11,289 bases of DNA, from NCBI GenBank assembly GCA_025924495.1, contig JAICIG010000261.1, positions 1 through 11,289 on the forward strand, read 5' to 3'. A model generated the notes under the pieces. That model saw only the letters and a list, made by a program, of their open reading frames with translations, did no database searches and was not told where the DNA came from. The stretch comes from Pirellulales bacterium. Lineage in GTDB: Bacteria; Planctomycetota; Planctomycetia; Pirellulales; JAICIG01. The translations under genes and the position numbers were made by a program. Position 1 is the first letter of the stretch, and every line of letters begins with the position of its first letter. Of the stretch, positions 3,690 through 11,289 are shown in pieces.

Positions 3690-4934
3690 TTAAGAATCGT
3701 CCGATGCACGGCCGCTTGCCAAGCGCTCGTGCGCGGCGTCTGTCCAAGGACTGTCGACCGTCAGGTCTAGGAAGGCGCGCCAGTGAACTTCGGCCTCATC
3801 GCGGCGTCCCATTTCGTCGAGGGTCCGCGCCAGATGATACCGTGCGTCGGCATAATCGGGATGGTAAGCGAGCGCCCCTTCAAAGGCTGCGGCCGCCAGT
3901 TCGTGCTGATCGCTCTCGGCCAATACGCAACCCAGGTTGGCTCGCGCCTCCACATAATCTTCGTCGAGTTCGATGGCCATATAGTATCGCTCGCGAGCGG
4001 CGCCGACGTCCCCCATACGATATAGCAACTCCGCCAGCATGAAACAGGTTTCCGCATGCGGACCGCCGGCGGCCAGGGCCGCGCGATACATCTCCGCGGC
4101 GAGTTCCAGGTCGCCTTCGTCTTCGAGTTCCGCCGCTAGCGCCTTCATTTCTTCGGGCGAAGCCAGCGATGACAGGTTGGTTCGGCGCGAATCGCGGCCG
4201 GGCGATGCGGTCGTTGCTGGGCTGGCAGCTGTCGTGGCCGCCGGGCGGCTGCGAGTCGCTGGCTCGGCGCGCTCCGCTTCGAAATCGAACCGCAGTTGAC
4301 CTCCCGATTCGATGAGCCCGTCCCCTTGGCGAAGCAAAAGCTGCTTGCCTTCGACGATGATCGACAGTTGGGCCAGGGGGCGCTCGATCTCGGGCAGCAG
4401 CCGCTGCAAGGCCGCTAATTTTTTTTCAATTGCTTGCGGCGATACGCCGGCGGCCAGCAACTCGGCTAATCGCCGCGCCGTGGCGACTTGCTGGAAGTCG
4501 AAGTAAGGCAGCTTGCGCACCTCGCGCACCGGCGCGATCAGCCCGCGCCGATGCCAGCGGCGGATGACCGCCACGGAAACGCCCAGCAAGTCGGCGAGCA
4601 TGGCCGGAGTGTAAAGCCGATGGATGTTTTGCTCCCCCTCGACGAATCCCAACCGCTGCCAGAGTTGTGTCTCGGTGATGACCTGCACGCTGCCTTGCTC
4701 GACCGCCGCCCGCAATTCATCGTCTAGCGACTCGGTCAGGTCGCTCAGCGGCAAATCGGCTTCGCCCACGACAATGAGTTGAGGCCTTTCCGACAGCTTA
4801 TCCAGGGCAATGCCGCCGCTGGCCCGCACTAACTGCTGCGCTTCACGCCGCGACATACCGGCCAGCTTGCCGACGAATGCCACCCGCTCGTTCTTTAAGG
4901 CATCGGAGGCGGCGGCGGAAGCATGAAAGGACAT
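3690..4934 (-). CDS. BRCT-MerR-TPR fusion protein
   Basis: A 414-residue, three-part cytosolic protein. Residues 14-95 look like a BRCT domain (NERVAFVGKLAGMSRREAQQ, then ASGGIALDKL and LIVVGEADLPLS), similar to the NAD+-ligase/RFC1 type. Residues 107-175 form a MerR-like winged helix-turn-helix (YTPAMLADLLGVSVAVIRRW, RRGLIAP, YFDFQQVATARRLAELLAAGVS), which suggests DNA binding. Residues 180-220 are a short beta-rich linker and 221-258 an Ala/Thr/Pro/Ser-rich disordered linker. From 262 to the end there are about four TPR units (EEMKALAAELEDEGDLELAA; AETCFMLAELLYRMGDVGAA; VEARANLGCVLAESDQHELA; ADARYHLARTLDEMGRRDEA). The ATG at 4934 is preferred because the BRCT begins soon after it. The longer open frame upstream would be low-complexity and overlap the YTV gene. 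No clear Shine-Dalgarno is seen. This domain order recurs in planctomycetes; no function is established that I know of. A role as a DNA-associated regulator using TPRs for protein partners is inference. Confidence 0.85.
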   Translation of the reverse strand: MSFHASAAASDALKNERVAFVGKLAGMSRREAQQLVRASGGIALDKLSERPQLIVVGEADLPLSDLTESLDDELRAAVEQGSVQVITETQLWQRLGFVEGEQNIHRLYTPAMLADLLGVSVAVIRRWHRRGLIAPVREVRKLPYFDFQQVATARRLAELLAAGVSPQAIEKKLAALQRLLPEIERPLAQLSIIVEGKQLLLRQGDGLIESGGQLRFDFEAERAEPATRSRPAATTAASPATTASPGRDSRRTNLSSLASPEEMKALAAELEDEGDLELAAEMYRAALAAGGPHAETCFMLAELLYRMGDVGAARERYYMAIELDEDYVEARANLGCVLAESDQHELAAAAFEGALAYHPDYADARYHLARTLDEMGRRDEAEVHWRAFLDLTVDSPWTDAAHERLASGRASDDS

Positions 4935-5026
4935 CTGTTTTTGTGCGGGGAAAGTCGCTCGACCGTGCTTTCCAGGGTTCCGGCGAAGATGTGGTTCCCC
5001 CAAGCATAACGCCGCGAGGGGCGGCG

Positions 5027-5069
5027 AAAAAGATGCGGGGCACAGGCCGCAGTGATGGCCCGTGCCCCG
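5027..5069 (-). terminator. Rho-independent terminator of the YTV-repeat gene
   Basis: Read on the minus strand, CGGGGCAC (5062-5069) and GTGCCCCG (5036-5043) form an 8-bp GC-rich stem. After one mismatch it continues inward with four more pairs (5045-5048 with 5057-5060). It is followed by GCATC and a run of five T (the A-run at 5027-5031 on the plus strand). It lies 62 bases beyond the YTV stop codon and before the BRCT-MerR-TPR start, so the two minus-strand genes are probably separate transcription units. Confidence 0.75.
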
Positions 5070-5130
5070 GGCGCTGGTTTCGGGCCTGCTTGTTGGGGCG
5101 ATTCGGCAGGCAGTTCTCTTTACCCGGTTC

Positions 5131-6564
5131 TCAGGTTTCACGGCCTCGGGTGGAGCGAATGACCGGCCGCAACTTCGATGAGCGGTTGCTCGTGCTTCCG
5201 TTCGGCGCCGATTCATCGACCGGTTCCGGCACGTTCTGCCCAGGCGGGATCTCCGGTTTTTTCTTGGCGGCGCCGTTCGTTTCGCCGCCGTTCGATGCGC
5301 CGTTGCCGCCCGATTTCGATTCTTCTTCCGGCGGCGCCAGCGTGGGCTCGCCTTGCTTCAGCGACCTTTGCGGCGCCGAGCTGTAAGCCGGCGCGCTGGG
5401 AGCAACCGCGGCCGCCGGGGCGGGAGCATAGACGGGATTGCCGCATGGATCGATCGGCACCTTAAAGACCACCGTTCGCGGCACGCGATAGGTGTAGGTG
5501 ATCGGCACGCGCTTCTCGACGATTTGCGGCACCTGGATCGTTTCTTCGGTGGCTACCTGGCGGCAGACCTGAACCGGCAGTTGCTCCACCTTCTCTTCTT
5601 CGACCATGCGCATCGTGGTGACCGGCACTTTGCGGACCACTTCTTCAGGCATCATGCGGCAAACGCGCACCGGTACCTTGTTTTCCACTCGTTCCGTCAC
5701 TTGTCGGCAAACGGTGTATGGCACCCGGCGCACCTGTTCTTCTTGTACCATCCGGCAAACCTGGATGGGCACTTTACGGACCACCTGCTCGTCAACATAA
5801 CGGCAAACCTGCACCGGCACCTTGCGTGTCATCACGCGGGCGGCATAGCTGGTTTGCGGAACTTGCATGGTGACTAGATTCGGCTGCCAGACTCTCTGCG
5901 CCGTGACCACGCCTGGCTGTTGCACCGGAGTCCAGTACAGGCCGCCGCGCTGGTAGGCGGTGCGGCCCGTCAACGGATCGCTAACGCACATGCCCGACTG
6001 CCACGAAAGCTGGTTGCGCACCGGCCCAGGTCGGTAAACTTGCTGTTCGACAAAATATCCTTGATCCACTTGCACCGGACTGTAGGTAGTTACCGGTTCC
6101 ATGACGGTGTAGTTTTCGTCGCGTTCGGCGGTTTCGACCACCGGACGACGCACCATATATCGCTCCTCGCGTTCTTGCGTCTCGTACACGGGGCGCTGCA
6201 CCATGTAGCGCTCTTCGCGTTCGGCGGTTTCGTACACATTTCGCACGACATCGTAGCTGCGGTCTTCGACGCGTTCTTCCCATACGGGTCGCTGCACGGT
6301 GTAGCGTTCTTCGCGTTCGGCGGTCTCATACACGGGTCGAGCTACGGTGTAGCGCCTTTCGCGCATTTCCGTTTCCCAGACGGGGCGATAGCTCGTCACC
6401 TTGCGCTGCTCATAGACGGTTTCTTGCTCGACGCGATAGGCGGTTACTTGACGGTCTTCAAAGACCGTCTGGTACTCGAGCCGGTACGTATCCCCACACG
6501 GCGATTGGGCGCTCGCGGCCGAAGCCAGCAGGAACGCAGTCGTAATAGCAAGTGCGGTTCTCAT
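5131..6564 (-). CDS. Secreted planctomycete YTV-repeat protein
   Basis: A 477-residue exported protein. Residues 1-20 are a signal peptide (MRTALAITTAFLLASAASAQ, cleavage likely after A-x-A). Residues 30-157 are eight consecutive 16-residue units of the YTV type (consensus roughly VYETAEREERYTVQRP), with a weaker ninth to 173. Residues 174-246 form a unique segment rich in W, Y, Q and P with one Cys (193). Residues 247-342 hold six more 16-residue units of a different consensus (RKVPVQVCRMVxEExV), five of them with a Cys in the same place. Residues 343-373 are degenerate copies. The tail from 378 is a low-complexity Ala/Pro, Ser/Gly/Glu and basic stretch. The ATG at 6564 is chosen because it gives the signal peptide and has GAGGGGAAG directly upstream; an in-frame ATG at 6642 does not. 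YTV proteins are known almost only from planctomycetes and are taken to be cell-envelope components. A disulfide-linked or extended beta structure is plausible but inferred. Confidence 0.9.
   Translation of the reverse strand: MRTALAITTAFLLASAASAQSPCGDTYRLEYQTVFEDRQVTAYRVEQETVYEQRKVTSYRPVWETEMRERRYTVARPVYETAEREERYTVQRPVWEERVEDRSYDVVRNVYETAEREERYMVQRPVYETQEREERYMVRRPVVETAERDENYTVMEPVTTYSPVQVDQGYFVEQQVYRPGPVRNQLSWQSGMCVSDPLTGRTAYQRGGLYWTPVQQPGVVTAQRVWQPNLVTMQVPQTSYAARVMTRKVPVQVCRYVDEQVVRKVPIQVCRMVQEEQVRRVPYTVCRQVTERVENKVPVRVCRMMPEEVVRKVPVTTMRMVEEEKVEQLPVQVCRQVATEETIQVPQIVEKRVPITYTYRVPRTVVFKVPIDPCGNPVYAPAPAAAVAPSAPAYSSAPQRSLKQGEPTLAPPEEESKSGGNGASNGGETNGAAKKKPEIPPGQNVPEPVDESAPNGSTSNRSSKLRPVIRSTRGRET
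5539..5826 (-). repeat. Six coding 48-bp repeats with periodic cysteine
   Basis: These code for residues 247-342 of the YTV-repeat protein. Each 48-bp unit encodes about (R/N)KVPVQVCRMVxEExV; units differ by many synonymous and some amino-acid changes, so they are old duplications rather than recent slippage. Five of six units have Cys at unit position 8; the fifth unit has Met there. Confidence 0.85.
6094..6477 (-). repeat. Eight coding 48-bp YTV repeats
   Basis: These code for residues 30-157 of the YTV-repeat protein, eight units of exactly 16 codons with no indels. The DNA word GCGTTCGGCGG/T recurs at 6121, 6217 and 6313, exactly 96 bases apart. Alternate units are therefore most alike, and the array probably grew by duplication of a two-unit block. 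Confidence 0.85.
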
Positions 6565-7092
6565 CTTCCCCTCATCCTTCACATTGCCGTCCGGAAGCGC
6601 GGTCCGGCCGGCAAATTTCCTGGTGCTGGTATCTCGGTTCAATATTCCTTGCGCTGGGTTCCTCGCCGCGGCCCCCCTCCTTACTACGCAATAAGACCGC
6701 GAAAAAACCCTTCAAGAGAATGTGGCGGACTAAATGAGAGGCTGCAAACAGAAAACTTTAACATCGCCCCGATCGCGATCCCTAAATCCATACATTAAAA
6801 GACTTTGTGTTTCTCAAAAATCCCTAAAGATTTTTCACCGGCCACGCCGAGCGACGCTAGCGGCGCCATCGATTTTTCACCGCAAACGCTAGCGTCGCAA
6901 CGAACCGGTACATCCCGTCTCTGGCGGGGGCGGATTTGGAGGTGGAATTGCGGTCGAAACAAGCAAACGCTGTAGCCCAACGAAGGCCCGCGTAATAGCA
7001 CCGTTCTCAGCCGACAGGGGGCAAGGTGCTAATATGAATCAACGCTCCGAGTCGCCAGCCGGCCCTAACTGCAACGCTGAGACCCTCCTCGC
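6565..7092. other. 528-base intergenic region between divergent genes
   Basis: This gap must hold the promoters of the minus-strand YTV gene and the plus-strand regulator. No gene is supported in it. The only distinct structure is the repeat cluster at 6816-6898, described separately. TAATAT at 7030-7035 resembles a -10 box for the regulator but has no matching -35. TTGAAG on the minus strand near 6711 followed by TATTGC near 6689 is a poor promoter candidate for the YTV gene. I saw no sigma-54 -24/-12 pair here. Confidence 0.6.
6829..6898. repeat. Compound inverted/direct repeat, possible dispersed planctomycete element
   Basis: GCGACGCTAGCG (6851-6862) and its exact complement CGCTAGCGTCGC (6887-6898) make a 12-bp inverted repeat with a 24-base spacer. 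Each arm itself contains the palindrome CGCTAGCG. The 12-base word GATTTTTCACCG occurs twice as a direct repeat (6829-6840 and 6871-6882), 42 bases apart. A smaller AAAAATC/GATTTTT pair (6816-6822, 6829-6835) adjoins it. The layout resembles REP/BIME-like units scattered between genes. I see no other copy in this window. Confidence 0.55.
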
Positions 7093-8478
7093 ATGGAACT
7101 CGATTTTCGGAAAGATCCGGCCGTGCTGAGCATGGTCATTGATGCAATGGCCGTGGGGGTGTTCACGGTGGATGCCAAAGGAAGCTTCGTGGCCTGGAGC
7201 GAGGGCGCCGAGCGGATCACCGGCTATTCTGCCGGCGAGGTCATTGGCAAACCATGCCGCATCCTCGAAGGGCCCAACTGCAAAGGCTTCGCCACGCTGG
7301 ACGAGTTACTCCGCTCGCCGGAAGCGGCGCCCGCGGGCATTTGCAACCAGGAGTGCAAACTGCTCGCTAAGGGCGGGCGGGAATTGTACATCTTCGGCAG
7401 CGTGCGCCTGCTTCGCGATGAAGCGGGCAAACCGCAAGGCGCGGTTGGCAGTTTCGCCGACCTCACGCCGTTCGTGCAGGCGAACGAGAAAATTGCGCTG
7501 CTGGAAGAGCAGACGCGCTCCCGCACGGCGCTGGCGCGTTTGTTGGGCAAGAGCGAGTCGATGCAGGAGGTGTTCCGGCGCTTGCGCCTGGCGGCGCAAA
7601 GCGATGTCACGGTACTCATCACGGGCGAGTCGGGCTCAGGCAAGGAATTGGCAGCGGCGGCCGTTCATTCGCTCAGCGCCCGCTCTAGCCGGCCATTTCT
7701 CGGCGTCAATTGCTCCGCCATTCCGGAAAGCCTGTTGGAAAGCGAGTTGTTCGGCCACGTGAAAGGGGCTTTCACGGGCGCGGTGCGCGACAAAATCGGC
7801 TTGTTTCAGGCCGCCGATGGCGGCACGCTGTTTCTCGACGAAATTGGCGACGTCAGCCCGTTGCTGCAAGTCAAGCTGTTGCGAGTGTTGCAAGAGCGCG
7901 AGATTCGTCGCGTCGGCGATGAACGCGCGATTAAGGTCGACGTGCGGCTGTTGACCGCCACGAATCGTGATCTGAAGAGCCTGATTCAGAGCGGGCAGAT
8001 GCGCGAAGATTTTTACTATCGCATCCGCGTTTTCGAGATCGCCTTGCCGGCGCTGCGCGAGCGGCGCGAAGACATTCCGCTGCTGGTCGATCATTTCATC
8101 GCGGACTTTGCCCGCAGTCAATCGAAGCACGTCACCGGAATTGCGCGCGACGCGCTGGCGCGGTTAATGCACTATCGCTGGCCCGGCAACGTGCGCGAAT
8201 TAAAGAACGCCATCGAACATGCCTTTGTCACGGTGAGCGGCGACCGCATTACGTTGCTCGACCTGCCGACCGAGATTCGCAATGAGGCCGAGTCCGGCCG
8301 AGCGGCCGCGCCACTCCTTTCGCCCGCCGCAGCCGCCGAGCGTCAGCGCATTTTGGAGGCGCTCAAACAATCGGGCGGCAATCGCACGGAAGCGGCAAAA
8401 CGACTCGGCGTCAGTCGGGTCACGCTCTGGAAGCGAATGCGGAAGGCCGGGCTCGACAGCGTCGAAACGCCGGATTAG
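7093..8478 (+). CDS. PAS-domain sigma-54-dependent activator, FisR-like, probable sulfane-sulfur sensor
   Basis: A 461-residue bacterial enhancer-binding protein. Residues 8-128 are a PAS sensor domain ([20 protein letters not shown], then [14 protein letters not shown] and the [20 protein letters not shown] strand pair). It carries four cysteines, C55, C63, C84 and C88. A short helical linker (130-150) leads to the AAA+ domain, with Walker A GESGSGKE (178-185), the sigma-54 contact loop GAFTGA (225-230), Walker [12 protein letters not shown] (243-253), LRERREDIP (321-329) and sensor II GNVREL (365-370). Residues 418-454 form a Fis-type helix-turn-helix ([19 protein letters not shown]). There is no receiver domain, so control is by ligand or redox state rather than phosphorylation. 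The gene lies directly upstream of the persulfide dioxygenase operon, whose promoter is of the sigma-54 type. FisR of Cupriavidus, as I recall it, activates sulfide-oxidation genes through cysteines in its N-terminal domain; by analogy this is its counterpart. ATG 7093 has no Shine-Dalgarno. Confidence 0.9.
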
Positions 8479-8511
8479 GCCTCGCCGCGCCGACTTCATG
8501 CTTCATGCCGT

Positions 8512-8556
8512 GCGTTAACGCGCTAGGTTAACGCGTTAACGGTTTCAGGTTAACGC
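8512..8556. promoter_or_regulatory. Enhancer-like array of four GTTAAC motifs (probable activator binding site)
   Basis: GTTAAC occurs at 8514, 8527, 8535 and 8549. The first lies in the 10-bp perfect palindrome GCGTTAACGC (8512-8521). The second and third form the 14-bp perfect palindrome GTTAACGCGTTAAC (8527-8540). The fourth is GTTAACGC followed by ATGC. Motifs one and three are 21 bases apart and motifs two and four 22 bases apart, about two helical turns, so they face the same side of the DNA. The array starts 33 bases after the regulator's stop and ends about 100 bases before the -24 element, the usual place for an upstream activating sequence. Confidence 0.7.
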
Positions 8557-8653
8557 ATGCCGCTGCCGCCTTGCGAGTAAATCGGCTTTCTGCAATTGCT
8601 AACTGATTACTGCAGGCAGTGTTGGGGCGTGGGTTGCTGATGCGCGCAGACGC

Positions 8654-8669
8654 TGGCACGGCCATTGCT
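8654..8669 (+). promoter_or_regulatory. Sigma-54 (-24/-12) promoter of the persulfide dioxygenase operon
   Basis: TGGCACG (8654-8660), four bases, then TTGCT (8665-8669) matches the sigma-54 consensus TGGCACG-N4-TTGCW at every position, with the invariant GG (8655-8656) and GC (8667-8668) ten bases apart. Transcription should start near 8680 and leave a leader of about 113 bases before the dioxygenase ATG. The upstream gene encodes a sigma-54 activator with an intact GAFTGA loop, which makes the call very strong. Confidence 0.92.
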
Positions 8670-8708
8670 TTCTATGCCGTCCGCTGACAAAAGGCGGTGA
8701 AACGGCCC

Positions 8709-8744
8709 GCGGCGTCCAATCGAACATCCGTGGGAAGACGCCGC
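8709..8744 (+). other. Hairpin in the dioxygenase mRNA leader
   Basis: GCGGCGTC (8709-8716) and GACGCCGC (8737-8744) pair perfectly over 8 bp with a 20-base loop, entirely inside the predicted leader between the sigma-54 start near 8680 and the ATG at 8793. It does not cover the ribosome binding site (8777-8784) and has no T-run after it. It may stabilise the message or act as a pause/attenuation element. Confidence 0.45.
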
Positions 8745-8792
8745 TGAATTCTCCCCTGGGAAGCAAACGCCTCATCGAAGGAAGCGACAAGC

Positions 8793-10187
8793 ATGATCCT
8801 CAAACAATATTATCTCGGCTGTCTGGCGCACGCCTCGTACCTCGTCGGCGACGAGCAGTCGGGAAAAGCCGCCGTCATCGATCCTCAGCGCGACATTGAT
8901 CAATACCTTTCAGACGCGCAAGAGTTAGGATTGAAAGTCGAGTATGTGTTCTTGACGCACTTCCATGCCGATTTTGTGGCTGGACACGTTGAGCTGCGCA
9001 ATCGCACCGGCGCCCGAATTTATCTCGGCGCCCGCGCTCAGGCCGAATATCAATTCGTTCCGGTGCGCGACGGCGACGTTATTCAGTTCGGACGCACCGC
9101 GTTAAAGGTGCTCGAAACTCCGGGGCACACGCCCGAAGGCATTTCGATCTTGGTTTATGACCTGGTTCGCGATGCCAGCCGGCCTCACGCTGTCTTCACT
9201 GGCGACACGTTGTTCATTGGCGACGTGGGCCGACCCGACCTGATGGCATCGATCGGCGTTTCAGCCGAAGAACTGGGCGGCATGCTGTACGACTCGTTGC
9301 ATGAGAAACTGCTGACCTTGCCAGATGAAACGTTGGTCTATCCAGCGCATGGCGCAGGCTCGATGTGCGGCAAACAGCTCAGCAGCGAGAGCGTCTCGAC
9401 CATCGGCGTGCAGCGCAAATATAACTACGCCTTACAGCCGATGAGTCGCGAAGAATTTGTCCGCCTGGTATCAGCAGATCAACCCGAGGCGCCCAGTTAT
9501 TTTCTGCATGATGCGATGTTGAATCGCCAGGAACGGTCTGATCTGGATGCATCACTCGAGAAGTCGCTGCGCCCGCTGAGCTTGAATGAGACGGTGCGAT
9601 TGCAGGCCGCAGCGGCGCAAGTTGTGGACGTGCGCTCTGCCGCGGATTTCGAAGCTGGGCATCTGCGCGACAGCATCAACATTGGCTTAAAAGGCAGCTA
9701 CGCGACCTGGGCGGGAACCGTGCTCGATCGCCAGCGACCGATTGTTCTGATTGCCGAGCCGGGCGAAGAACAAGAGGCGGCCATGCGATTGGGGCGAATT
9801 GGCTTCGACCACGTTGCCGGCTACCTGGGCGGCGGGTCGCGCGCGCTGTTCGACCATCCGGAATTGGTCCGAGCCACCGAGCGGATCACGGCGGCCAGCC
9901 TGGCAGAAGAGTTGAGCTCAGAGACGCCGCCTGTCGTTGTCGACGTCCGAAATGCTCAGGAACGGAGTTATGGAGCGATCGAAAACAGCGTCCATGTTCC
10001 TTTGAATCGATTGCGGGATCGGCTTAGCGAATTGCCGCGAGATTGCCGGCTGGCGGTTCACTGCGCGGGCGGATATCGCTCGGCGATCGCCGCCAGCTTG
10101 TTGCTGCAGGCAGGCTTCGAAAATGTTGTTGATCTTGTCGGCGGCTACTCCGCGTGGGAGAAGAGCAAAACTGCAACCGCCGTCTGA
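8793..10187 (+). CDS. CstB-like persulfide dioxygenase with two rhodanese domains
   Basis: A 464-residue cytosolic enzyme in three parts. Residues 1-245 are a metallo-beta-lactamase-fold persulfide dioxygenase (ETHE1/Blh family), with THFHADFVAGH (55-65), GHTPEG (111-116), GDTLFIGDVGRPDL (137-150) and PAHGAGSMCG (184-193). The likely Fe(II) ligands are H56, H112 and D138. C192 sits where CstB has a reactive cysteine near the iron. Residues 268-356 are a rhodanese fold with no cysteine in the active-site loop (AEPGEEQE, 321-328), hence catalytically dead. Residues 366-460 are a complete rhodanese domain with loop CAGGYRS (C424). The first domain oxidises low-molecular-weight persulfide with O2 to sulfite. 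By analogy with staphylococcal CstB, the last domain uses persulfide and sulfite to make thiosulfate. The start has AAGGAAG (8778-8784) eight bases upstream. It is first in the sigma-54 operon; a 46-base gap leads to the next gene. Confidence 0.93.
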   Translation: MILKQYYLGCLAHASYLVGDEQSGKAAVIDPQRDIDQYLSDAQELGLKVEYVFLTHFHADFVAGHVELRNRTGARIYLGARAQAEYQFVPVRDGDVIQFGRTALKVLETPGHTPEGISILVYDLVRDASRPHAVFTGDTLFIGDVGRPDLMASIGVSAEELGGMLYDSLHEKLLTLPDETLVYPAHGAGSMCGKQLSSESVSTIGVQRKYNYALQPMSREEFVRLVSADQPEAPSYFLHDAMLNRQERSDLDASLEKSLRPLSLNETVRLQAAAAQVVDVRSAADFEAGHLRDSINIGLKGSYATWAGTVLDRQRPIVLIAEPGEEQEAAMRLGRIGFDHVAGYLGGGSRALFDHPELVRATERITAASLAEELSSETPPVVVDVRNAQERSYGAIENSVHVPLNRLRDRLSELPRDCRLAVHCAGGYRSAIAASLLLQAGFENVVDLVGGYSAWEKSKTATAV

Positions 10188-10233
10188 ACAAGTTTGTAGC
10201 GCTAGAGAAACAAACACTTAAGGAAATCCATTC

Positions 10234-10794
10234 ATGTCGACTGCTGTTAACTCGTCGGTCAAAACCAAGCCTGCCCTGCCGGAGTCGCTCGACGGCGATT
10301 GCCTCTGGATCGACGTCCGTACCCCGGCCGAGTTCCGCGAGCTCCATGTGCCGGGCTCTGTGAATGTGCCGCTGGGAGATCTCGAGCGGCTATTGCCCAA
10401 AATCAAGGAAGACGCCGCCGGCAAGCATGTGGGGCTGGTTTGCGCTTCGGGCCGGCGCGCCAGCGTGGCTTTCGAGCAGTTAATCAAGGCGGGTGTCGAT
10501 AATTGTTGGGTTCTCGAAGGGGGAGTGACGGCTTGGGCTGGCGCTGGGCATCCGGTGAATCGCGGTCGGAAGGCGATCTCGCTCGAGCGACAGGTGCGCA
10601 TCGTGGCAGGCTCGCTGGTAGTGCTCGGCTCGACACTCGGCGCCCTCCTGCATCCCGGCTTCTTTGGGCTGGCGGCATTCATTGGCGCCGGCCTGGTGTT
10701 CTCCGGAGTCACCGACACTTGCGGCATGGCGCTGATGCTGGCGAAGTTGCCCTTCAATCGTAGCAGTTCGCAAGGCTGTTGCGGGGCTAAGTGA
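10234..10794 (+). CDS. Membrane-anchored rhodanese (rhodanese + DUF2892, YgaP-like)
   Basis: A 186-residue sulfurtransferase. Residues 20-107 form a single rhodanese domain (CLWIDVRTPAEFRELHVPGS; catalytic loop CASGRRAS with C70; VLEGGVTAWAGAGHPV). Residues 115-175 form a DUF2892/YgaP transmembrane hairpin (ISLERQVRIVAGSLVVLGS, then PGFFGLAAFIGAGLVFSGVT and CGMALMLAKLPFN). The rhodanese domain should face the cytosol at the membrane. The tail ends in GCCGAK, a vicinal Cys pair. It probably moves sulfane sulfur at the membrane, perhaps between the dioxygenase, a quinone-linked sulfide oxidase or the exporter. AGGAA (10221-10225) is eight bases upstream of the ATG. The 46-base gap after the dioxygenase holds no promoter I can see, so it is likely in the same operon. 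Confidence 0.92.
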   Translation: MSTAVNSSVKTKPALPESLDGDCLWIDVRTPAEFRELHVPGSVNVPLGDLERLLPKIKEDAAGKHVGLVCASGRRASVAFEQLIKAGVDNCWVLEGGVTAWAGAGHPVNRGRKAISLERQVRIVAGSLVVLGSTLGALLHPGFFGLAAFIGAGLVFSGVTDTCGMALMLAKLPFNRSSSQGCCGAK

Positions 10795-10915
10795 TCGGCG
10801 AGTAGGTCAATTGCCATTCAAGTCTTGCTCGGGAATGCCGGCAGGAAAACTGCAAAGGCGCGGGCCATAGCAGGGTTGCGCGCATCGCAACGAATACAAA
10901 ACGGAAAGATCGTCC

Positions 10916-11289
10916 ATGGCCGCTCATTTTGTGATTGCACTGGCGCTGGCCGCGTTGATCGGCCTCTCGCTGGGGCTGTTAGGCAGCGGGGGATCGATCG
11001 TCACGTTACCGGTGCTCGCGTATGTGGCGAAAGTCCCGCCCGAGACCGCAGTGGCGATGTCGTTGGCCATTGTGGGAGCCACAAGTCTCGTGGGCGGCGG
11101 CATGGCCTGGCGACGCGGATTCGTGCAAGTGCGAGAAACATTGTTATTTGCCGCATTGGGAATGCTGGGCGCCGCGCTCGGAGCGCAACTGACGCACTTC
11201 GTTCCCTCCGCCTTGCTGATGCTATTGTTCGCCGGTCTGATGCTCGTGGTGGGGTTACGAATGTTGCTGGTTCGCGGCGCCAAATTCGG
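10916..11289 (+). CDS. TauE/SafE-family exporter, 3' partial (probable sulfite exporter)
   Basis: The first 124 residues of a membrane permease; the gene continues past the right edge, and the family is usually about 250 residues long. The hallmark first-helix motif is present (GLSLGLLGSGGSIVTLPVL, 16-34). PPETAVAMSLAIVGATSLVGG (41-61) and two further hydrophobic segments (75-92, 97-118) follow. TauE/SafE proteins export sulfite, sulfoacetate and related anions; in the staphylococcal cst locus a TauE member accompanies CstB. Here it would remove the sulfite produced upstream. The ATG at 10916 has GGAAAG (10903-10908) seven bases before it. The 121-base gap from the rhodanese gene contains a small GTTGCG/CGCAAC hairpin (10875-10880 with 10886-10891) but no evident promoter, so the gene probably belongs to the same operon. 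Confidence 0.88.
   Translation, partial: MAAHFVIALALAALIGLSLGLLGSGGSIVTLPVLAYVAKVPPETAVAMSLAIVGATSLVGGGMAWRRGFVQVRETLLFAALGMLGAALGAQLTHFVPSALLMLLFAGLMLVVGLRMLLVRGAKF

Follow-up and report, generated by a model that had tools for sequence, protein, structure and literature searches.

FisR of Cupriavidus, a sigma-54-dependent activator, carries three reactive cysteines in its sensor. According to the part of a review dealing with FisR, cysteines of FisR form tetrasulfide or polysulfide bridges, which raise the ATPase activity of the protein (PMC12170894). In Acinetobacter baumannii, as related in the corresponding sections of Walsh et al. 2020 (PMC7315123), FisR controls PDO1-SQR-TauE, the genes of a persulfide dioxygenase, a sulfide:quinone oxidoreductase (SQR) and an exporter, and is needed for their induction by sulfide. 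The same sections match PDO1, SQR and TauE with genes of the Staphylococcus aureus cst operon and describe A. baumannii FisR as having none of the Cupriavidus regulatory cysteines. The present study deals with an 11,289-base stretch of DNA from a Pirellulales bacterium (contig JAICIG010000261.1, hereafter the window), where a sigma-54-dependent activator with a different sensor is followed by an array of GTTAAC half-sites, a sigma-54 promoter and the genes of a CstB-like persulfide dioxygenase, a membrane rhodanese and a TauE-type exporter. It is likely that this operon serves detoxification and is inducible by reactive sulfur, the activator acting on the half-site array (consensus GTTARC) and driving the sigma-54 promoter when its sensor is modified by sulfane sulfur.

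The operon, its promoter and the half-site array

All of these elements lie on the + strand (Table 1). The activator has the domain set of FisR, a sensor followed by a Sigma54_activat AAA+ domain and a Fis-type helix-turn-helix (HTH) domain, with Pfam matches to Sigma54_activat (2e-69), AAA_lid_14 (4e-29), HTH_8 (2e-13) and PAS_9 (4e-10). The placement is also that of FisR, at a pdo operon with tauE and with a sigma-54 promoter ahead, sqr being found in relatives only. Among the ten window proteins scanned, there is no CsoR/CstR-type protein of the kind that represses the cst operon. The exporter matches positions 2-111 of the 237 of its profile, so the gene is cut by the window end.

Table 1. 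Features of the window
Feature	Position	Strand	Remarks
Sigma-54-dependent activator	7093..8478	+	LOV-like PAS sensor (~residues 1-145; C55, C63, C84, C88), AAA+ domain, Fis-type HTH
Enhancer-like array, four GTTAAC half-sites	8514..8554	.	Simulation and recurrence in relatives
Sigma-54 -24/-12 promoter TGGCACGGCCATTGCT	8654..8669	+	Exact consensus match
CstB-like persulfide dioxygenase - cysteine-less rhodanese - rhodanese fusion, 464 aa	8793..10187	+	Matches Lactamase_B and, in two stretches, rhodanese
Rhodanese with YgaP-like transmembrane domain, 186 aa	10234..10794	+	Pfam Rhodanese 6e-17, YgaP-like_TM 9e-10
TauE/SafE-type exporter, first half only	10916..11289 (window end)	+	PF01925, 75.5 bits (cut-off 32.6)
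YTV-family protein	5131-6642	-	48-bp repeat, ~5.4 copies

This co-directional set, from the regulator to TauE and including an exact promoter, had been proposed in a preliminary description of the window, and Pfam, the coordinates and the simulations described below bear it out. The idea of a single sigma-54-controlled persulfide module has likewise held, as the regulator, array, promoter and dioxygenase are conserved across relatives. The preliminary description also regarded the union of FisR-type control and TauE as a novel mixture, which it is not, since A. baumannii FisR, in the account cited above (PMC7315123), already controls PDO1-SQR-TauE. With sigma-54 control of PDO, SQR and TauE known from Acinetobacter, the window stands less apart from the cst operon than was first thought.

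Within the window, no sequence other than the promoter (TGGCACG-N4-TTGCT) matches TGGCACGNNNNTTGCW exactly. Sequences with no more than two mismatches are not in excess (3 observed, 2.46 expected by shuffling); an exact promoter arose in the 314-bp intergenic stretch in 1 of 20,000 order-1 Markov simulations. The four GTTAAC hexamers start at 8514, 8527, 8535 and 8549, and in the rest of the 11.3 kb there are just two (2562 and 10246); none of 20,000 simulated intergenic stretches contained four of them inside 56 bp. The array is situated ~100-140 bp upstream of the -24 element, and GTTARC sites occupy the equivalent place in relatives.

To count this combination in related loci (L; genomes are labelled G), an array with promoter was defined as two half-sites GTTARC/GCTAAC within 60 bp, located 40-200 bp upstream of an element scoring at least 9/12. 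It was found downstream of the regulator at 34 of 61 loci, versus 4 of 564 control regions, taken upstream of the other genes predicted at the same loci. Half-sites alone occurred in 37 of 61 post-regulator regions and 6 of 564 controls, and promoter elements alone (at least 9/12) in 49 of 61 and 59 of 564, each related locus having full weight in all these counts. The four control matches precede the displaced rhodanese operon of L009, the cytochrome c genes of L005 and L016, the latter located before a SorA gene, and a response-regulator gene of L028; they look like further targets of the activator.

A stricter genome-wide pattern had matches in 10 of 18 genomes, in 15 rows that represent 13 distinct sites; the other eight genomes, all of them regulator-bearing, had none. 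Nine sites lie at modules or dioxygenase genes, two before a response-regulator/cytochrome pair ~12 kb from the module (G658 and G630), and the remaining two, both in G006, make no obvious sense. The same pattern run backwards gave 11 matches, so the number of matches is not in excess and their location alone is informative. At L169 and L170 (G658:C1:1178548 and G630:C1:33332) and at L028:14598-15098, half-sites and a sigma-54 element precede a response-regulator gene; in L169 and L170, a cytochrome c gene comes next. It is possible that the response-regulator gene is a second target of the same activator. At L044:11383-11500, three GTTAAC and one GCTAAC come after the regulator, with no dioxygenase, rhodanese or good-scoring sigma-54 element following; a search at E 1e-40 found no dioxygenase anywhere in the genome of this locus. 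The L044 array would be either a leftover or the control region of an unrecognised target.

The dioxygenase shows near-full-length matches to 3tp9 (E 8e-88) and 3r2u (E 5e-63) and, among the best 60 of 863 records, aligns with annotated cstB of two staphylococcal plasmids with 32-33% identity and 97-99% query coverage. Cysteines are present only at positions 10, 192, 418 and 424, and the first rhodanese domain has none. The THxHAD metal motif appears as THFHAD at 55, while C192 lies in HGAGSMCGK at 186 and C424, the active-site cysteine of the second rhodanese domain, in HCAGGYRS at 423. Judged by the amino acid sequence, both the domain layout and the positions of the motifs are those of CstB. 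C192 and C424 presumably play the roles of the CstB residues, and the fusion protein is predicted to possess persulfide dioxygenase and sulfurtransferase activities.

The sensor domain

Conservation of the sensor cysteines was assessed in 113 regulators, comprising the window protein and 112 of the best 120 listed homologues (314 in total) kept by length. C63 and C88 are present in all 113, C84 in 110 and C55 in 109. None of 36 aligned PAS domains lacks C55, C63 or C88, and at least 90% of them have C84. LOV domains were the first matches both in the profile search and for the predicted PAS model, with heme PAS domains (FixL) lower. The model is of moderate confidence, with a mean predicted local distance difference test (pLDDT) score of 78.6 and values of ~60 at residues 61-70. 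C55 aligns with the adduct cysteine of LOV domains (NCRFLQ), giving a LOV/PAS fold with an adduct cysteine.

In LOV domains, asparagine and glutamine residues serve as flavin contacts. The position of the glutamine is taken here by an invariant F121 and that of the second asparagine by a hydrophobic residue, which makes canonical flavin binding unlikely. The top LOV matches and the position of C55 would suit a working blue-light receptor and a light-controlled operon, but both replacements speak against it, and light does not account for the additional cysteines. This explanation was rejected as extremely improbable. It seems rather that the PAS domain would act as a thiol sensor of sulfane sulfur and that the activator is probably a gene switch tripped by reactive sulfur.

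Another explanation retains the operon and its sigma-54 control but assigns the PAS cysteines to an iron-sulfur cluster or a metal, or the PAS domain to heme, so that sulfide, oxygen or the redox state would be sensed and not thiol persulfidation. Four conserved cysteines could ligate a cluster. The relevant passages of PMC9918477 cite Staphylococcus carnosus NreB as an example of a PAS with a [4Fe-4S] cluster and report the NreB PAS of Bacillus licheniformis to be H2S-responsive and to activate sqr-pdo. However, C84 is dispensable, being missing in L046 and L047, and a four-cysteine cluster therefore cannot be general; moreover, LOV domains lead both the fold and the profile matches, and FixL ranks below them. 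The cluster, metal or heme explanation is considered unlikely, and a sulfane sulfur-reactive thiol sensor is preferred.

Distribution and neighbourhoods of the regulator

With a PAS profile, each of 17 genomes yielded a single gene at E <=2e-58, the next-best match in any of them having 4e-13; elsewhere, G779 contains two such genes, and G470 one that is split across two contigs. Among sampled genomes of the planctomycete phylum, 7 of 392 encode the sensor, as do 16 of 170 genomes of one planctomycete order and 38 of 246 genomes of one Nitrospirota class, in samples that overlap with the loci of the neighbourhood survey. A tblastn search of plasmids with the regulator gave, among the best 25 of 2,536 records, matches of 35-41% with no sign of this sensor. 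Sigma-54 is encoded in 16 of 17 regulator-bearing genomes. The closest named contig, L001, whose regulator is 73% identical, is labelled Chloroflexi. Its genome, G012, has no sigma-54 match, hence it may be mis-binned or incomplete.

The neighbourhoods were surveyed with tblastn at 68 loci including the window, 28 outside the Nitrospirota and 40 within. Loci with a contig end near the regulator were omitted from the counts (L002, L012, L046, L108, L110 and L112 of the former; L006 and L042 of the latter). Downstream of the regulator, at a distance of at most 2 kb, a dioxygenase gene is present in 11 of the 22 readable non-Nitrospirota loci (L004, L011, L014, L047, L102, L103, L104, L107, L109, L111 and the window) and in 19 of the 38 readable Nitrospirota loci. 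L002, which was not counted, probably leads into a dioxygenase gene as well, as it shares its intergenic sequence with L126 of the same genome (G013). The neighbourhood survey suggested in the preliminary description did not refute the link between regulator and operon; direct adjacency is encountered in about half of the readable loci and not in all.

The other genes in operons with this regulator or array are also sulfur genes, encoding SQR, TauE, rhodanese, peroxiredoxin or thioredoxin. L107 repeats the order of the window (regulator-dioxygenase-rhodanese-TauE). In L047 (Planctomycetes bacterium Poly30), a peroxiredoxin gene stands ahead of the dioxygenase gene; L109 has a rhodanese gene, then those of thioredoxin and SQR; L011 encodes an SQR (E 9e-132 to mitochondrial SQR structures), and in L001 a double rhodanese takes the place of the dioxygenase. 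Eight of the 38 Nitrospirota loci (L003, L009, L015, L016, L027, L028, L029 and L113) have a rhodanese gene and no dioxygenase gene within 2 kb. The rhodanese gene of L009 lies 4.2 kb from the regulator, and a dioxygenase gene is found 4.3 kb away in L029.

Unlinked dioxygenase genes were sought in 20 regulator-bearing genomes, most of them chosen for a non-adjacent gene, and matches (E 1e-40) were obtained in 12. For the 11 readable non-Nitrospirota loci with no adjacent gene, an ortholog with 57-68% identity is present elsewhere in seven genomes (G005, G006, G014, G306, G308, G436 and G469); G007, G008 and G009 have none, and G012 has just a 38% paralog. In six of the seven, the far-off ortholog is accompanied by 1-4 exact half-sites and an element scoring 10-12/12. 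The combination is missing from four paralogs (35-38%), whose elements score at most 7 except in L135 (9) and of which only L131 has a half-site. The far-off gene of the Nitrospirota genome G610 has one half-site and an element scoring 8.

It could be supposed that the regulator stands beside the operon by chance and belongs to another pathway, since the dioxygenase gene is not its neighbour in half of the readable loci. Nevertheless, the array and promoter accompany the operon also where it lies far from the regulator, and in L009 they have stayed with the rhodanese operon despite a subtilase gene between this operon and the regulator. The comparison across loci indicates that the link between regulator and operon exceeds mere adjacency, and chance adjacency, which was rejected, has hardly any probability left.

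Five unlinked operons were read further; L182, L183, L184 and L186 have the order dioxygenase-rhodanese-TauE-SQR, and L185 has no SQR. The suggestion that SQR might come after TauE thus proved right for four relatives, with none in the window itself, and SQR may well follow TauE in the source of the window, though relatives differ in this respect.

A portion of the Nitrospirota loci gives reason to consider a broader signal, such as nitric oxide, nitrite-derived or electrophile stress or copper, with the dioxygenase operon as one of several targets. The regulator and array are kept before DUF1264 and cytochrome c genes where a dioxygenase gene is not found, and Nitrospirota regulators have a cupredoxin (34 of 40 loci) and a 585-aa protein (38 of 40) nearby. 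On the other hand, the targets identified in non-Nitrospirota loci are sulfur genes, and unlinked dioxygenase operons bear the array. Besides, a sulfite:cytochrome c oxidoreductase of the SorA type (E 7e-131 to 2blf) is encoded within the fetched stretch at 11 of 40 Nitrospirota loci and in 7 of 10 Nitrospirota genomes tested, though G017 has SorA too, with no dioxygenase. A signal broader than reactive sulfur is decidedly unlikely as the general explanation, and sulfane sulfur remains the preferred inducer.

Regulator and GTTAAC sites persist before DUF1264/cytochrome c genes, for example, at L034:11647-12764, and the cytochrome genes may be the oldest target of the array. The 585-aa protein (L003:8090-9847) is encoded upstream of the regulator in the same direction and is hydrophobic over a stretch close to its N-terminus; searches of Pfam and PDB gave no relative.

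The remaining part of the window contains the gene of a YTV-family protein, a family typical of planctomycetes, and a MerR-TPR fusion at 3690-5216 (-), a 508-aa open reading frame; a BRCT domain (PF00533) is also present in several listed homologues. The named matches among the best 120 listed MerR/TPR homologues belong to Pirellulales, Thermoguttaceae or Planctomycetes, and these together with the YTV-family protein speak for a planctomycete origin of the window. Homologues of ~400-420 aa with ~80% query coverage point to a true start further inside the 508-aa frame.

Proposed mechanism and comparison with known systems

Sequence comparison establishes which genes are present, that array and promoter occur as a pair and that all of these are conserved in two phyla; the DNA binding, the induction, the inducer and the enzyme activities in the following scheme are predicted. 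Sulfide would enter or be made, and SQR (in relatives) or other enzymes would convert it to thiol persulfides. Sulfane sulfur, as persulfide or polysulfide, would react with C55, C63, C88 and, in most regulators, C84 of the sensor. The activator would bind the array of GTTARC half-sites, and a DNA loop would bring it into contact with RNA polymerase-sigma-54 at the -24/-12 promoter, which the AAA+ ring, prompted by the modified PAS domain, would open by hydrolysing ATP. The dioxygenase-rhodanese would then turn thiol persulfide into sulfite and thiosulfate, the membrane rhodanese would handle sulfur at the membrane, and TauE would export sulfite or thiosulfate. The SQR encoded after TauE in several relatives would make persulfide from sulfide.

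A number of observations weigh against this scheme. Half of the loci that could be read do not have the dioxygenase gene next to the regulator. Eleven of 38 Nitrospirota loci (L010, L024, L032, L034, L035, L037, L038, L039, L041, L043 and L118) have DUF1264 and cytochrome c genes downstream, with neither dioxygenase nor rhodanese. No dioxygenase match was obtained at E 1e-40 in 8 of the 20 genomes searched (G007, G008, G009, G414, G015, G017, G626 and G628), of which four are Nitrospirota and some may be incomplete. In G308, neither dioxygenase gene has half-sites. L047 possesses a dioxygenase gene yet, like L046, lacks C84. SQR of the L011 type was found in only 2 of 16 genomes (2 of 6 planctomycetes, 0 of 10 Nitrospirota), other SQR types not having been searched. 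The distances between regulators correlate with those between dioxygenases (r = 0.88, 29 pairs, 0 of 2,000 permutations), but shared descent would also yield such a correlation, which weakens it. Finally, the inducer could be broader than persulfide.

A further-reaching proposal is put forward tentatively, with slightly more doubt than belief. The sensor would belong to a new class responding to sulfane sulfur, in which a PAS domain of LOV origin has lost its flavin contacts and bears a set of conserved cysteines (three or four); C55, where the photo-adduct formerly arose, would read persulfide rather than light. A GTTARC regulon common to Planctomycetota and nitrifier-related Nitrospirota would control the pathway from sulfide to sulfite and, in part of the Nitrospirota, also cytochromes and the SorA region.

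Sulfide is a stress in the habitats of planctomycetes and nitrite oxidizers. With a candidate sensor, DNA motif and targets now named, the question can be tested in cultured strains such as Poly30 (L047). If the proposal is true, it adds to FisR a second route by which sigma-54 is coupled to sulfane sulfur, and the regulon ties nitrifiers to sulfide tolerance. The regulator could also explain a rise of more than 76-fold in planctomycete pdo transcripts after addition of NaHS to sediment, reported in the pertinent part of PMC12345210, where Nitrospirota are among 20 phyla with a rise; this is a phylum-level metatranscriptome, and that part specifies neither the pdo type nor the regulator.

In the open-access literature, no description was found of a cysteine-bearing LOV-like PAS activator, of GTTARC enhancers, of a regulon shared by Planctomycetota and Nitrospirota, or of a regulator of sulfide detoxification in planctomycetes or nitrite oxidizers. 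The main text of PMC12316311, a survey of sigma-54 regulons, uses none of the words 'persulfide', 'rhodanese' and 'Nitrospir'. Within the scope of these searches, the type of sensor, the motif of the enhancers and the regulon common to both phyla are new.

The closest described system is FisR of Cupriavidus pinatubonensis and A. baumannii, which, in the sections of PMC7315123 concerned with it, shares with the window a sigma-54 activator, a Fis-type HTH, a sigma-54 promoter and persulfide dioxygenase, SQR and TauE as targets. The window differs in its LOV-like PAS sensor with C55, C63, C84 and C88, the two sensors being set apart by description only, and in a dioxygenase of the three-domain CstB type. 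Its regulator gene lies upstream in the same direction, whereas that of A. baumannii is divergent (PMC7315123, same sections). The S. aureus cst operon has the same three-domain dioxygenase-rhodanese (CstB) and TauE, along with the SQR seen in relatives of the window, but is governed by the repressor CstR and not by an activator and a sigma-54 promoter. In the NreBC-sqr-pdo system of B. licheniformis, as outlined in PMC9918477, a PAS domain also governs sulfide-induced sqr-pdo; however, it is a two-component system of a Firmicute and not a sigma-54 activator, and the PAS domains were compared by description only. Short LOV photoreceptors and CagFbFP have the same fold, with a cysteine at the adduct position occupied by C55 in the window, whereas the window PAS has its flavin-contact residues replaced and two or three further conserved cysteines.

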